Positions 27,863-42,357 of a DNA stretch of 64,000 bases are shown in pieces (the stretch's first letter is position 1; each line of letters starts with the position of its first letter). This DNA comes from Metallibacterium scheffleri. GTDB taxonomy: Bacteria; Pseudomonadota; Gammaproteobacteria; Xanthomonadales; Rhodanobacteraceae. The stretch is from the NCBI RefSeq assembly GCF_002077135.1, contig NZ_LDOS01000002.1:1947865-2011864 (forward strand), read 5' to 3'. The position numbers and the translations under genes were made by a program. The notes beneath the pieces were generated by a model. The model saw nothing but the letters and a program-made list of their open reading frames with translations. It had not been told where the DNA came from and ran no database searches.

Positions 27863-29182
27863 TCACGCGTCGCCGCGCATCGTGGCCGGCAGCAGCACGC
27901 GCACGCACAAGCCGCCGCCCTCGCGATTGATCAGCGCGACGCGACCGCCGTGTGCCTCGACGATCTCGCGCGCCAGTGCCAGGCCCAGCCCGCTGCCGCT
28001 GCGCTTGGTCGAATAGAACGGCAGCAGCGCCTGCGCCAGCACCGCATCGCTCATGCCGGGGCCGCGGTCGCGCACCTCGATGCGCCAGTGCGCGCCGCTG
28101 CGCTGCACCTCCAGCTCCACCGCCTCGGCCGGGCCGCCGGCTTCGTGCGCGTTCTTGATCAGGTTCAGCAGCACCTGCTCCATCTGCGCGGCATCGAAAC
28201 TGGCCAGCGCCTCGGGCACCGGGTACGGCACGCGGAAGCGGGCGTGCGCGGCCAGCGCCGCCACGAATGCCGGCCACTGCACCGGCTCGGGGCGCGGCGC
28301 GGGCAGCTTGGCGATCTGCGCGTAGTCGGCGATGAAACCGTGCAGATGGCGCGCGCGCTCGCCGATGCGCGCGAACACGTCCGGCAGGCGCTGCGCCTCG
28401 CCACGCCGCGCCAGCTCGGCGCCGGAATGCGCCAGCGAGGTGATCGGCGCCAGCGAGTTATTCAACTCGTGGCTGATCACGCGGATCACCTTCTTCCACA
28501 CCGCCACCTCGGCGCGCGCCAGCTCGCGTGTCATGCGCCGCAGCAGGTACAGCCGGTGCGGGCGACCGTGCAGGCGAAAGCCGCGCTGCGAGAGATGAAA
28601 ACTCTCCTCCATACCCTCCATTTCCAGCGAGAACAGACTGTCCTCGCCCAGCTCCAGCGCGCGCCGCAGGGCGTGCGGCAGGCTCGCCGCGAGGCGCTCG
28701 AAATCCAGCCCGATCAGGCTGCGTCCTTCACCCAGCAACTGCCGCGCGGACAGATTGGCCAGGGTCACGCGCCCGCCCGGATCGACCAGCAGCAAGGCCA
28801 CCGGCGAATGCTGCACGACCGTGTCCAGCAGCAGCTCGCGCTGCGCCAGGTTCTGCCGCTGCTCGCGCAGCGCGGCGCCGAGCGCGTTGTGGGTGTCGAT
28901 CAGCGCGCCCAGCTCGTCCTTGCGCCGCGCCGCGATACCGAAGCTGAAATCGCCGTCGCGATAACTGGCCACGCTGCTCTCCAGCGCGCGCAGCAGGCGC
29001 CGCAGCGGCTGCACCACCACATAGGCCAGCCACAGCGCGGGCAATGCCAGCGCCAGCCAGGCCAGCCACAGCGCGGCCGCGGGCAGCATCCAGCGCGCCA
29101 GCAGCAGTGCCAGCGCGGCGCCGGCCAGCGCCGCCAGCCACAGCAGCAGCGCCAACCGGCCGGTGGTGGAGAACACGCGCAC
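27863..29182 (-). CDS. NtrY-like membrane sensor histidine kinase
   Basis: 439 residues from GTG 29180-29182. Two membrane segments at about 8-30 and 35-55 are followed by a HAMP-like linker, a PAS domain (VVQHSPVALLLVDPGGRVTL), the H-box ISHELNNSLAPITSLAHS, and an ATPase domain with NLIKNAHEAGG (N box) and SGSGLGLALAREIVE (G2 box). The NN after the phospho-histidine glutamate is typical of NtrY relatives. Its start is 2 bp past the regulator's stop, so the pair is co-translated. There is no large periplasmic sensor, so it may sense the membrane or the cytoplasm. Confidence 0.9.
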   Translation of the reverse strand: MRVFSTTGRLALLLWLAALAGAALALLLARWMLPAAALWLAWLALALPALWLAYVVVQPLRRLLRALESSVASYRDGDFSFGIAARRKDELGALIDTHNALGAALREQRQNLAQRELLLDTVVQHSPVALLLVDPGGRVTLANLSARQLLGEGRSLIGLDFERLAASLPHALRRALELGEDSLFSLEMEGMEESFHLSQRGFRLHGRPHRLYLLRRMTRELARAEVAVWKKVIRVISHELNNSLAPITSLAHSGAELARRGEAQRLPDVFARIGERARHLHGFIADYAQIAKLPAPRPEPVQWPAFVAALAAHARFRVPYPVPEALASFDAAQMEQVLLNLIKNAHEAGGPAEAVELEVQRSGAHWRIEVRDRGPGMSDAVLAQALLPFYSTKRSGSGLGLALAREIVEAHGGRVALINREGGGLCVRVLLPATMRGDA

Positions 29183-29184
29183 CG

Positions 29185-30522
<1,338 letters not shown>

Positions 30523-30732: not shown

Positions 30733-31287
30733 TCAACTGTTGCTGGCATGCGCATTGACAAAGCAACTCTTGACCGAGCGCGGGTCGATGGCCGCATACG
30801 GCGCGAACGCGGGCAGCCGCGCCACGAGCTGATCCTGCGTGGCGCGGATCGCGCCGATCGCGCCGCACAGGCGATCCACCTGCCCATCGAGCCGCGCCGC
30901 CTGCGCGTGCGCGGTGTCGTTGATGATGCGTGAATCGTCGTGGAACAGCGCAGAGAACAGCGAGCCGACGACGCTACCGGCCATGTGCGCGCCGGCCCAT
31001 CCGGTCTGCTTGCCATCGAACACGATCACCTGCGCCTGCGTGAAATAGCGCGTGGTCAGCATGCGCTGCGCGGACGTCAGCGCTACCGATTCGCCGGCGA
31101 TGCGCAACGCGCCATTGGCCTCGATCTCGGCCATGTCACCGCCGCGGTCGCGAATCGAAACGCGGTCGGCGTGCACATGGATGGTTTGCCCATCCAGATT
31201 GATACGGGCGTCACCACCGCAGGCGCTCAGACCCAGCGTCAGCAGACCGATCAAGGCGATTCGTGCAGCGAGGGATTGAACGTGCAT
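30733..31287 (-). CDS. Putative lipoprotein, YggN/DUF2884-like
   Basis: 184 residues. The signal peptide ends in a lipobox LSAC with Cys23 as the lipid anchor. The mature part has INLDGQTIHVHADRVSIRDR and GALRIAGESVALTSAQRML, which resembles the core of YggN (DUF2884); the match is moderate. HMAGSVVGSLFSALFHDD is a small hydrophobic stretch. It lies on the same strand after the last permease, separated by a 330-bp repeat-rich gap, so co-regulation with the exporter is plausible but unproven. Confidence 0.65.
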   Translation of the reverse strand: MHVQSLAARIALIGLLTLGLSACGGDARINLDGQTIHVHADRVSIRDRGGDMAEIEANGALRIAGESVALTSAQRMLTTRYFTQAQVIVFDGKQTGWAGAHMAGSVVGSLFSALFHDDSRIINDTAHAQAARLDGQVDRLCGAIGAIRATQDQLVARLPAFAPYAAIDPRSVKSCFVNAHASNS

Positions 31288-37149: not shown

Positions 37150-37617
37150 TCACTGCGTGCCGCCGTTCAGCGGTGGCAACGGTGGTGGCGGCAGCAGCGG
37201 CGGCAATGGCGGTGGCGGTGGTGCCGGCGGCAATGGCGGTTCGGGCGGCACCGGCTGTCGCACGATCAGGTCGATGAACGGTGCGATCTGCGCCTGGGTG
37301 AAATCCATGCGACGGCCCTCGCGCAACACGCCGAGGCGGACCTTCCCGCTGCGCGCCAGCACGCGCAATTGCCTGGTGAAAGCATCCGGTGTCCGCACCG
37401 GCAAGCCGTTGAGCGACACGATGCGATCACCCACGCGCAGTGGCGTGGCGACACCGAGATGCAGATGTTCGATCAGCACGCCCACGCAGGCTACCTGTGC
37501 ATGCCGTGCACAGGGCGCATCGCTACCCGCGACCAGCAGCACCTGCTGCGATCCACTGCGGATGGAATCGCGTTCACTGCTCATTTGCACGGTTTCGGTG
37601 GGTGGCAGGCTATGCAT
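37150..37617 (-). CDS. PDZ-domain protein with polyproline tail
   Basis: 155 residues from ATG 37615-37617, with GGAGAA upstream at good spacing. The middle is a PDZ-type fold: GVLIEHLHLGVATPLRVGDR, IVSLNGLPVRTPDAFTRQL, VRLGVLREGRRMDF. The last 35 residues are almost only Pro, Leu and Glu (PVPPEPPLPPAPPPPPLPPL and on), which would need EF-P for translation. No signal peptide is seen, so it may stay in the cytoplasm or be exported by an unusual route. It lies between permease pairs 1 and 2 in the same operon, 28 bp after pair 1. The function is unknown; scaffold-like binding to permease tails is a guess. Confidence 0.7.
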   Translation of the reverse strand: MHSLPPTETVQMSSERDSIRSGSQQVLLVAGSDAPCARHAQVACVGVLIEHLHLGVATPLRVGDRIVSLNGLPVRTPDAFTRQLRVLARSGKVRLGVLREGRRMDFTQAQIAPFIDLIVRQPVPPEPPLPPAPPPPPLPPLLPPPPLPPLNGGTQ

Positions 37618-40185: not shown

Positions 40186-40920
40186 TCAGCTCCGCGGCAG
40201 CGTGAGATCGCCCGCGGTGCGCTCGCGCAGGCCGGGATGGAAGCGCGGCTCCTCGCTGACCCCGGTGGCCATACCGTCGACGATGTGCACGTTGCGCTGC
40301 GCGCGCGCGGCCAGCTCGGGATCGTGGGTGACCATGATGATGGTGGCGCCCTCGCGGTGGATTTCCTCGATCAGCTCCATCACCCCGCGCGCCATCGCGG
40401 TATCGAGGTTGCCGGTGGGCTCGTCGGCGAGCAGCAGGCGCGGGCTGCCGGCCAGCGCGCGCGCAATGGCCACGCGCTGCTGCTGGCCGCCGGAAAGTTC
40501 GGCCGGATAGTGTTTCAATCGCGCCGACAGACCCACCCGCTCCAGCGCCGCCAGGGCGCGCTTGCGGCGCTCGCCGCCGGACATGTGGCGGTAGTGCAGC
40601 GGCACCTCGACGTTGTCCACCACGTTGAGGTCGGGGATCAGGTTGAAGGCCTGAAACACGAAACCGATCTTCTCGTTGCGCAGGCGCGAGCGCTGGTTGT
40701 CGTTCATGCCGTGCACGTTGACGCCATCGAGCAGGTATTCGCCGCGGGTGAAATCCTCCAGCAGCCCGGCGATGGTCAGGAACGTGGTCTTGCCCGAGCC
40801 CGACGGCCCGGTGACGGCGACGAACTCGCCCTCGTCGACCTTGAGCGAGAAGCCGCGCAAGGCGTGGGTCTCGACGGTTTCGGTGCGATACACCTTGGAC
40901 ACTTCGCGCATCTCGAGCAT
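40186..40920 (-). CDS. ABC transporter ATP-binding protein (MacB/LolD type)
   Basis: 244 residues. Walker A GPSGSGKTT, Q-loop FVFQAFNL, signature LSGGQQQRVAIARAL, Walker B LLLADEPTGNLD and the switch His in MVTHD are all intact. It energises the MacB-like permeases. The ATG at 40918-40920 follows GGAGA; a GTG one codon earlier is also possible. It is the only ATPase in an operon with six permease genes, so it probably serves all three pairs. Confidence 0.93.
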   Translation of the reverse strand: MLEMREVSKVYRTETVETHALRGFSLKVDEGEFVAVTGPSGSGKTTFLTIAGLLEDFTRGEYLLDGVNVHGMNDNQRSRLRNEKIGFVFQAFNLIPDLNVVDNVEVPLHYRHMSGGERRKRALAALERVGLSARLKHYPAELSGGQQQRVAIARALAGSPRLLLADEPTGNLDTAMARGVMELIEEIHREGATIIMVTHDPELAARAQRNVHIVDGMATGVSEEPRFHPGLRERTAGDLTLPRS

Positions 40921-40945
40921 CACGTTCTCCGGCAGTTAAAGGAAT

Positions 40946-42220
40946 TCAATGACTGATGACCACGCGCGGCGCGTCGTGGAAACTTTCGGCGCCGGCGACG
41001 ATGACGCGCTGGCCCGGCCTGAGCCCGGCCAGCACCTGCACGCGGTCGATGCTGCTGGGGCCGAGGCGCACCGGCGTGCGCACGGCCAGATCGCCGTGCA
41101 GCACGTACACCGCGCTGCCGCCATCGCTGTCCAGCGACGGGCCGCGCGCCACGGTGATGGCGTCGGCCACGCGCTGCAGCACCACGCGCACGCTCAGGCG
41201 CTGGTTCTGCCGCAGCCCGGCCGGCCGCGCGCTGGCGAAGCGCACGCGCGCGGCCACTTCGCCGGCCACCACCTCGGGCGAAATCGCGCCGACGATGCCC
41301 GGCCAGCGCTGGCCGTCGCCGCTGATATCGGCGTGCATGCCCGGCGCCAGATCGCGCGCGAAGCTTTCCGGCACCTTGATCTCGACTTCCAGCGCCGACA
41401 GATCCACCACGCTCAGCAGCGCCGCGTCCTTGACCACCTTGGTGCGGTCGGCCACCGCCAGTTGCCCGACCTGGCCGGTGACTGGCGCGCGCAGGGTCAG
41501 CGCATCGACCTGGCGCTGCAGGTCGGCGACGATCAGCTGCTGGCGCTCGGCGGTGAGACGCTTGCTGCGGATCTCGAACGCCACCATGCGATCGTCGAGC
41601 CCCTGATCCTGCTCGGCGTGACGCAGGGTGATCTGCGCCTTGTCCAGCGCGTTCTGCGCGCGCAGCACGTTGATCTGCGGCACCGCGCCCAGCTGGAACG
41701 CGCGCGTGTTGCGATCCAGATCGGTCTGCGCGGCTTTCAGGTCGATGCGCGCGTCCTCCAGTTTCTGGCGCGCGGCCAGGCGCTTTTTCTGCGCGTCGAG
41801 ATGGGCGTTCTCGTAACCGAGCTGCAGGCTTTGCAGTTGCGCCTGCTCCTGCGCCAGGCGGTTGGTCAGCTCGGGGCTGTCGACGATGCCCAGCACAGTG
41901 CCCTTGTGCACCGCGTCGCCAGCCTGCACCCGATAGCGCACCGTGCCCGCCGCCGCCGCGTACAGCGTGGGGCTGACCGCCGCGACCACGCGCCCGTCGG
42001 CGGCGATGTCGCGCACGAACGGACCCTGCTGCACCGTGGCCACTTCCAGGCGGCTCAGACTGACGCTGCCGGATGCGGCGAGATAGCGCGTGAACAGCAC
42101 GCCCAGCAGCACCACCACCAGCACCGCGCTGCCGGCATACAGCAGCCGCCGTTTGTGCCGGCGCCAGCCTTGCGCGGTCTCCAGCACGAAATCCTGCCCC
42201 TGTGTGTCGCGAAAATTCAT
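40946..42220 (-). CDS. HlyD/MacA-like periplasmic adaptor
   Basis: 424 residues. One N-terminal membrane helix (RRLLYAGSAVLVVVLLGVLF) is followed by a split lipoyl domain (VQAGDAVHKGTVLGIVDSPE and LRAPVTGQVGQLAVADRTKV), a long coiled-coil hairpin between them (about residues 115-230), a beta-barrel and a membrane-proximal domain. It would connect the inner-membrane ABC complex to an outer-membrane exit duct; no TolC-like gene is in the window. It is the first gene of the exporter operon and sits directly behind the sigma-54 promoter. Confidence 0.9.
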   Translation of the reverse strand: MNFRDTQGQDFVLETAQGWRRHKRRLLYAGSAVLVVVLLGVLFTRYLAASGSVSLSRLEVATVQQGPFVRDIAADGRVVAAVSPTLYAAAAGTVRYRVQAGDAVHKGTVLGIVDSPELTNRLAQEQAQLQSLQLGYENAHLDAQKKRLAARQKLEDARIDLKAAQTDLDRNTRAFQLGAVPQINVLRAQNALDKAQITLRHAEQDQGLDDRMVAFEIRSKRLTAERQQLIVADLQRQVDALTLRAPVTGQVGQLAVADRTKVVKDAALLSVVDLSALEVEIKVPESFARDLAPGMHADISGDGQRWPGIVGAISPEVVAGEVAARVRFASARPAGLRQNQRLSVRVVLQRVADAITVARGPSLDSDGGSAVYVLHGDLAVRTPVRLGPSSIDRVQVLAGLRPGQRVIVAGAESFHDAPRVVISH

Positions 42221-42252
42221 GCCCGCCCCGTCGAGTGCACTCCCCCATACAA

Positions 42253-42269
42253 GGCAAGGTGCGTGCCAG
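42253..42269 (-). promoter_or_regulatory. Sigma-54 (RpoN) promoter of the exporter operon
   Basis: On the minus strand the sequence is CTGGCACGCACCTTGCC. It matches the -24/-12 consensus YTGGCACG-N4-TTGCW with both invariant GG and GC at the correct spacing. Transcription would start near 42243, giving a 5' leader of about 23 nt before the HlyD start. It fits the sigma-54 activator encoded at 29185-30522. Confidence 0.8.
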
Positions 42270-42332
42270 CCGCGGGCCGCACTTGCAAGCCTGCACGTTC
42301 AAGCAGTTGCGCGCGCAGCACATGGCCAAACC

Positions 42333-42357
42333 GTGTCCGCGGACAGCTCGCGGACAC
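42333..42357. promoter_or_regulatory. Candidate activator (UAS) palindrome
   Basis: GTGTCCGCG-N7-CGCGGACAC is a perfect 9-bp inverted repeat, with TGTCCGCGGACA nested at its left side. It lies about 65-105 bp upstream of the sigma-54 promoter, the usual range for an NtrC-type enhancer. The rest of the 315-bp gap 42221-42535 shows no other signal I recognise. Confidence 0.6.

Follow-up and report, generated by a model that had tools for sequence, protein, structure and literature searches.

A candidate sigma-54 enhancer–promoter in front of a MacB-like exporter operon in Metallibacterium scheffleri and its relatives

What controls the exporter operon whose first gene, encoding an HlyD-type adaptor, starts at position 42220 of this stretch, and does the two-component pair at the far end of the same operon take part? 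The window, by which we mean the whole stretch of 64,000 nucleotides that was analysed, carries a -24/-12 promoter and an upstream palindrome between positions 42253 and 42357. Judging from sequence comparison, this region is very probably a sigma-54 enhancer–promoter worked by the operon's own NtrC-type regulator.

The promoter and the elements upstream of it

Sigma-54 promoters follow the consensus TGGCAC-N5-TTGC. The predicted promoter TGGCACGCACCTTGC (42254–42268, minus strand) matches it exactly, with GG at -24 and GC at -12 at exact spacing, and it is the sole exact TGGCACN5TTGC in the window. An earlier note on this DNA had placed a -24/-12 promoter of exact spacing upstream of HlyD, and the match bears it out. 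Counting from the -12 element at 42255, the transcript is predicted to start at 42243, giving a predicted leader of 23 nt to the HlyD ATG at 42220, in agreement with the leader of about 23 nt that had been proposed. The genome contains one RpoN gene. The statistics of the window alone make a weak case for promoter and palindrome, because the window is GC-rich and neither element lies far above chance. About 0.37 exact promoter matches are expected by chance per window, and when up to one mismatch is allowed there are 11 matches in the window against 9.2 expected, which is background level. When the 317-bp intergenic region was shuffled, 12.6% of the shuffled sequences contained a perfect 9-bp inverted repeat with a loop of 0–20 bp; in the whole window there are 59 repeats of this kind.

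The earlier note had described the palindrome as a 9-bp inverted repeat. That repeat, GTGTCCGCG-N7-CGCGGACAC, is present exactly at 42333–42357, and the pattern GTGTCCGCGN{0,20}CGCGGACAC has this place as its single match in the 3.76-Mb genome. It had been mis-parsed, however: it pairs outer half-sites, and what is conserved is the inner 12-mer together with a half-site. We therefore rejected the 9-bp repeat as the binding unit. The core site, a putative activator-binding site, is the perfect palindrome TGTCCGCGGACA (42334–42345), which begins 77 bp before the T of TGGCA. This 12-mer has a single exact copy in the whole genome (3.76 Mb), and 21 further places match it with one mismatch. On the operon strand the layout is TGTCCG-N5-TGTCCGCGGACA: a direct half-site, TGTCCG (42351–42356, in the stretch 42346–42356, minus strand), lies 11 bp, or one helical turn, upstream of the core.

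Between the core and the promoter there is an IHF-like site, GTTCAAGCAGTTG (42297–42309, plus strand), with two mismatches to WATCAANNNNTTR, which we take to be the IHF consensus. The earlier note had missed it. Among family regions, 58/112 have an IHF-like match with 0–1 mismatch between core and promoter, compared with 3.4 expected from base shuffles and 0/112 in upstream stretches; the window's own site, with two mismatches, is unlike these 58.

Conservation within and beyond the family

HlyD homologs at E ≤ 1e-40 were found in 217 of 233 family genomes, and the upstream regions of 123 family genomes from 25 genera, the window's genome included, were compared. Genome and genus codes (G numbers, g1–g26; family f1) are labels of the dataset used. 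The window's HlyD is 98% identical to that of a Rhodanobacter MAG, and another relative is a 'Lysobacteraceae bacterium' MAG. In 122/123 family regions the promoter pattern TGGCAN6TTGC is found no more than 200 bp from the HlyD start, which rules out chance for the family. The lone exception, G117, has TGGCACGGTCCCTGC, one base off. As controls, the same pattern was found in 2/123 at -640 to -200 and in 0/123 on the other strand.

In all 123 regions we scored the core by the closest match to TGTCCGCGGACA in the 200 bp ahead of the promoter. It is exact in 109 of them (22 genera), has one mismatch in two and two mismatches in one (G209), and differs at three or more positions in 11. Since G129 has Ns and G012 ends early, nine of these 11 can be judged. 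These nine (g4, g5, g21, g24) have the same half-sites spaced apart, as has G209 by eye, all ten being without the contiguous 12-mer, and in g4 and g5 genomes without the 12-mer a dyad spaced like the 42333–42357 repeat could also be seen by eye. Additional half-sites are frequent in the relatives at -10 to -13 and -18 to -21 from the core, the commonest being YGTCCG at -10 to -13. Relative to the T of TGGCA, 89 of the 109 exact cores start at -75 to -81 and 17 at -66 to -70, with two at -87, one at -57 and none between the classes. Neighbouring classes differ by about one helical turn; they are a description and not a probability, as the sequences are related.

Identity between genera was calculated for 45 genomes from 9 genera, chosen because their core is near-exact and sits at a single spacing. 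This choice raises the values for the core (99.6%) and the promoter (87.3%). The IHF region reached 56.6%, the two linkers 29.5% and 34.2%, and the DNA far upstream 28.5%. The linkers and the far-upstream DNA have drifted between genera while the elements stayed.

Conservation in relatives had been set beforehand as a test that could refute the proposal, and promoter, binding site and regulator do recur together across the family. They are also present in other families of the order and, in looser form, in a few genomes beyond it. Regulator matches at E ≤ 1e-140 occur in 210/233 family genomes and in 258/398 genomes of the order, own family included; at E ≤ 1e-120, 8/369 genomes spread over the class have one. 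In another 20 genomes of the order we examined 12 kb of sequence lying upstream of the regulator; six genomes were added for the promoter test. The order HlyD–ATPase–P1–P2 is found in 18/20, the contig of G645 being too short and G617 giving no match. Outside the family, TGGCAYN6TGC lies upstream of HlyD in 22/24 genomes (control 0.5%), and in 19/22 the 120 bp ahead of the promoter contain TGTCCG or CGGACA one or more times (control 8.5%). In G618, one of the 3/22 without a half-site, the tested stretch was shortened, and TGTCCGGACA is present there. G476 and G572, which are without the promoter pattern, have TGGCACGAAT and divergent GGACA/TGTCC half-sites. The operon has one permease pair in 23/24 of the genomes outside the family and four in G397.

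The exporter operon and its two-component pair

All genes of the operon lie on the minus strand. An HlyD/RND-type periplasmic adaptor (40946–42220; PF16576, PF13437 and TIGR01730 above cut-off) is followed by a DarD/LolD/MacB-like ABC ATPase (40186–40923; PF00005, best NCBIfam model DarD, under cut-off), which is the sole ATPase gene seen in the operon. Three pairs of permeases come next. Both MacB_PCD and FtsX domains were found in P1 (38881–40182) and P2 (37646–38878, start approximate) of pair 1, in P3 (35550–36872) and P4 (34303–35598, start uncertain) of pair 2 and in P5 (32823–34133) of pair 3; its partner P6 (31618–32817, start approximate) was recognised by FtsX and by tblastn to relatives. 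The odd-numbered permeases match the first half of the ADOP model TIGR03434 and the even-numbered ones the second half. A small ORF between pairs 1 and 2 (37150–37617) has a PDZ-like domain, based on weak PDZ matches under cut-off, and a proline-rich tail. The 3' ends of P2 and P4 (37646–37999 and 34303–34656) share 354 bp at 94% identity while the remainder of the two genes has diverged, which suggests gene conversion between them. No outer-membrane efflux (TolC) partner was noticed in the window's operon. MacAB, ADOP and DarBCDE were rejected as names for the exporter, with scores far below curated cut-offs. The distance from the last permease to the regulator is about 1.1 kb, with another gene between, for a lipoprotein-like DUF2884 protein (30733–31287, minus strand; PF11101, 45.1 bits against a cut-off of 30.6) that is present also in G130 and G134.

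In the relatives that were counted, the operon has one HlyD, one ATPase and 1–11 tandem MacB-like permease pairs, the window having three. Pairs were counted in 20-kb stretches from 20 family genomes, with further pieces for some, and extra genomes were picked for long distances. One pair was seen in G107, G139 and G130, three in G145, four in G063, G046, G082, G001, G091 and G215, five in G096, G100 and G003, six in G101, seven in G067 and G102, and nine in G206 and G142 once further pieces were added. For G084 (at least five) and G156 (at least six) the operon runs beyond the stretch. Among the genomes picked for long distances, G193 has eight pairs, G172 and G202 have nine, and G205 and G195 have eleven, that is, 22 permease genes with one adaptor and one ATPase gene seen (L174–L177). 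An outer-membrane efflux protein gene (PF02321) lies between the ATPase and the first permease in G205, and ORFs similar to it were seen by eye in G195, G172 and G202. In G172 a DUF885 protein (PF05960) is encoded ahead of the regulator, and several other genomes have similar ORFs (by eye).

The earlier note's NtrC-type activator and kinase are found downstream of the permeases, co-oriented at the end of the operon. The regulator (29185–30522, minus strand) has a receiver (PF00072), an AAA+ sigma-54 domain (PF00158) and a Fis-type HTH (PF02954), all above cut-off. Its receiver Asp, GAYTGA loop and Walker motifs, which we take to be those named for such regulators (the loop being of the GAFTGA type), are intact, and the positions are largely conserved among 29 aligned sequences including the window's. 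In the kinase (27863–29182, minus strand) we recognised two transmembrane helices with a short loop, a HAMP-like region whose match falls just below cut-off, PAS and HATPase domains, both found, and a SHELNN H-box that is conserved in relatives. Hydropathy gives a topology of two helices with an inter-helix loop of a few residues; in some relatives this loop is roughly 30–40 residues long (by eye). Regulator identities as NtrC (330 of 558.6 bits needed), AtoC (341 of 714), ZraR (280 of 760) or PrsR (PEP-CTERM regulator, 334 of 502.6) were rejected, as the NCBIfam scores lie far below curated cut-offs. The best NCBIfam model for the kinase, AtoS, gave 110 of 646 bits needed.

HlyD and regulator lie 4.7–33.3 kb apart on the same contig in at least 101 family genomes among the matches listed, and the distance rises by 2.77 kb per permease pair (r = 0.99, n = 21). 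The two genes are separated by about 220 kb in G171 and by about 1.2 Mb in G208, and in G130, where about 18 kb past the HlyD start could be seen, the regulator is on a different contig from HlyD. Linkage of HlyD and regulator is therefore not universal. G130 also has an oppositely oriented regulator–kinase pair, 35% and 29% identical, after its short operon (L059, 6665–9646).

The elements, their order, spacing and conservation, and the intact motifs of regulator and kinase can all be read from the DNA, and from them we infer binding, activation, IHF action and co-transcription as follows. The kinase at the far end of the operon would phosphorylate the NtrC-type regulator, which would bind TGTCCGCGGACA and the phased half-site about 90–114 bp upstream of the start. 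Such binding to the TGTCCGCGGACA site is suggested by the co-conservation of the two. With the intervening DNA bent by IHF, the AAA+ domain would open RpoN-RNA polymerase at 42254–42268, and the adaptor, one ABC ATPase and three MacB-like permease pairs would be transcribed. Regulator and kinase are probably co-transcribed with the exporter, which would amount to positive feedback. More speculatively, the pump may remove or export compounds that act on the envelope, antimicrobial peptides for instance, each permease pair may confer its own specificity on the common ATPase–adaptor core, and the short-looped kinase may sense within the membrane.

Promoter and enhancer could be real and have another activator as their main regulator, with the adjacent regulator controlling something else. 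The genome has six strong sigma-54 activator genes, so another of them could bind the site, and the operon promoter is still present in two of the genomes with an unlinked regulator, G130 and G208 (that of G171 being the third unlinked one). Against this, the adjacent regulator accompanies the operon consistently, both within the family and in other families, and we consider control by a different activator unlikely. It is less likely still that the palindrome binds a repressor or has some other role than that of an enhancer, such as a TetR- or LexA-like operator would have, and stands before a sigma-54 promoter by coincidence. Two inverted half-sites that form a short perfect palindrome would also fit a homodimeric repressor, but an enhancer is favoured by the helical spacing from -24, by the IHF-like site in between, by the extra direct half-sites and by the recurrence of the same site before other sigma-54 promoters.

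The remaining alternative is a chance match in GC-rich DNA, the operon being transcribed from an ordinary promoter. Taken alone, the elements are as unremarkable as that account expects (0.37 promoters per window, 12.6% of shuffles, 11 matches against 9.2). Promoter retention in 122/123 regions, in surroundings that otherwise share about 28% identity between genera, leaves coincidence with next to no probability.

Related systems and sites in front of other genes

NtrC-type two-component sigma-54 systems such as NtrBC, AtoSC, ZraSR and PrsKR share general features, and the locus has these in common with them: a kinase, a receiver–AAA+–Fis regulator, a -24/-12 promoter, an upstream inverted-repeat enhancer and an IHF-like site. 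It differs from them in its site, TGTCCGCGGACA with direct half-sites, and in its target, an exporter. With MacAB-TolC exporters, including MacABCsm of Stenotrophomonas maltophilia, which the window's exporter presumably resembles, and with DarBCDE, it shares an HlyD-type adaptor, MacB-like permeases and a LolD/MacB-like ATPase; G205 has an outer-membrane efflux gene, the further MacAB-TolC component, in its operon, as do G195, G172 and G202 by eye. MacB is a homodimer with a fused N-terminal ATPase, whereas here the ATPase is a separate protein, the permeases form non-identical pairs at 1–11 per ATPase, and the PRK10535 score is far below cut-off. ADOP (TIGR03434) is matched in its two halves by the paired permeases, but these are two genes, scoring 135–195 of 622.3 bits each, and are linked to an ATPase and an adaptor.

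The BceAB-BceRS modules of Firmicutes also have FtsX-like permeases and a proposed role in peptide defence, and their kinase has a short inter-helix loop like that of the window's kinase, though not like the longer loop of some relatives. Bce modules use an OmpR-type regulator and a BceAB-type permease with a large extracellular domain, in contrast to the NtrC-type regulator with sigma-54, the MacB_PCD permeases, the periplasmic adaptor and the permease arrays found here. Because a MacB/ADOP-like permease lies beside a short-looped kinase, Bce-type peptide detoxification is our preferred guess for the function.

The earlier note had called the circuit self-contained. This holds for the window's genome, which has one copy of the core 12-mer and in which the circuit therefore looks dedicated to one target, but not for many relatives, in which the same module stands before further genes. 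The pattern TGTCCGCGGACAN{42,72}TGGCAN6TTGC occurs in 182/233 genomes, with up to seven matches in one, and the reversed site–promoter pattern gave 0 matches among those listed for the 233 genomes searched. We inspected 20 second sites and then 20 more that were nearly all of one recurring type; both sets were chosen, not random. Seven of the first 20 precede orphan permease pairs or single members (L148, L149, L160, L161, L163, L166 and L167; by eye), the orphan permease G070c being confirmed as MacB_PCD/FtsX, and by eye no own ATPase or adaptor was noticed beside the orphan permeases in the stretches seen. Six precede micropeptides. Three stand before a secreted protein ahead of a response-regulator gene (by eye; DUF4097-like in G016), two before a PCMT methyltransferase gene with one for an outer-membrane efflux protein behind it (by eye; a methyltransferase–tolC pair, confirmed in G004) and one before an alpha/beta hydrolase. 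The 20 additional sites (L188–L207) comprise 19 in front of a peptide such as MKFETLMLNSFFAACVAICVSTLAAMLA and one in front of an orphan permease.

The micropeptides that follow this enhancer and sigma-54 promoter form a family of 27–70 aa, membrane-like (MKFETLMLNSFFAAC...) and sometimes in tandem. Neither Pfam nor NCBIfam has a model that matches them at cut-off. A profile built from 16 of them has matches in 148/233 genomes (E ≤ 0.01), and the profile search gave none in the 13 genomes of the window's genus. The best 30 loci by score (L224–L253), some of which had helped to build the profile, all have [TC]GTCCGCGGACA and the promoter upstream.

These observations raise the possibility of an order-wide envelope-defence regulon, in which one adaptor and ATPase would serve up to 11 exchangeable permease pairs as well as orphan permeases under a single dedicated sigma-54 activator, and in which the micropeptides (27–70 aa) would be a pump accessory or a signal. 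Such a regulon would be the sigma-54 equivalent, in Gram-negative bacteria, of the Bce flux-sensing modules, its specificity widened by permease duplication and gene conversion. We offer this picture tentatively, as possible rather than probable. A genome-wide prediction (PMC12316311, PLoS One 2025) reports COG0577 permeases as enriched among predicted sigma-54 targets in gamma-Proteobacteria and claims the first evidence linking sigma-54 to FtsX-like permeases; its passages on this link do not mention, for such a case, an operon, a binding site, a regulator, an array or a micropeptide. In the open-licence literature, searched by title and abstract start, we found no description of the binding site, the regulator, the permease arrays or the micropeptides, and absence there is not proof.

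A conserved site, a regulator and a target make a directly testable circuit, and the 12-bp site with its promoter predicts a regulon. The arrays pose an unusual transport puzzle, namely how a single ATPase and a single adaptor could work with so many different permease pairs. Should the pumps act on antimicrobial peptides, the length of an array would tell of the chemical conflicts that its lineage has been through.

Copies of the micropeptide that lack the site were considered at 20 candidate loci (L303–L322), 18 of them absent from the site matches listed and two, of G113 and G201, in genomes outside those listed. A motif search found the peptide in 17/20; the motif was not found at L312, L313 and L320. 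By eye, 16 of the 17 have the one-base variant CGTCCGCGGACA with a sigma-54 promoter, so that copies without a site were rejected for these 16 loci, and the remaining one, L322, is a tandem copy lying downstream. One of the first 20 second sites is of another kind: in G017 (L164), a kinase fragment joined to a transposase-like ORF lies behind the enhancer and promoter, and this locus is likely a relic of a deleted operon.
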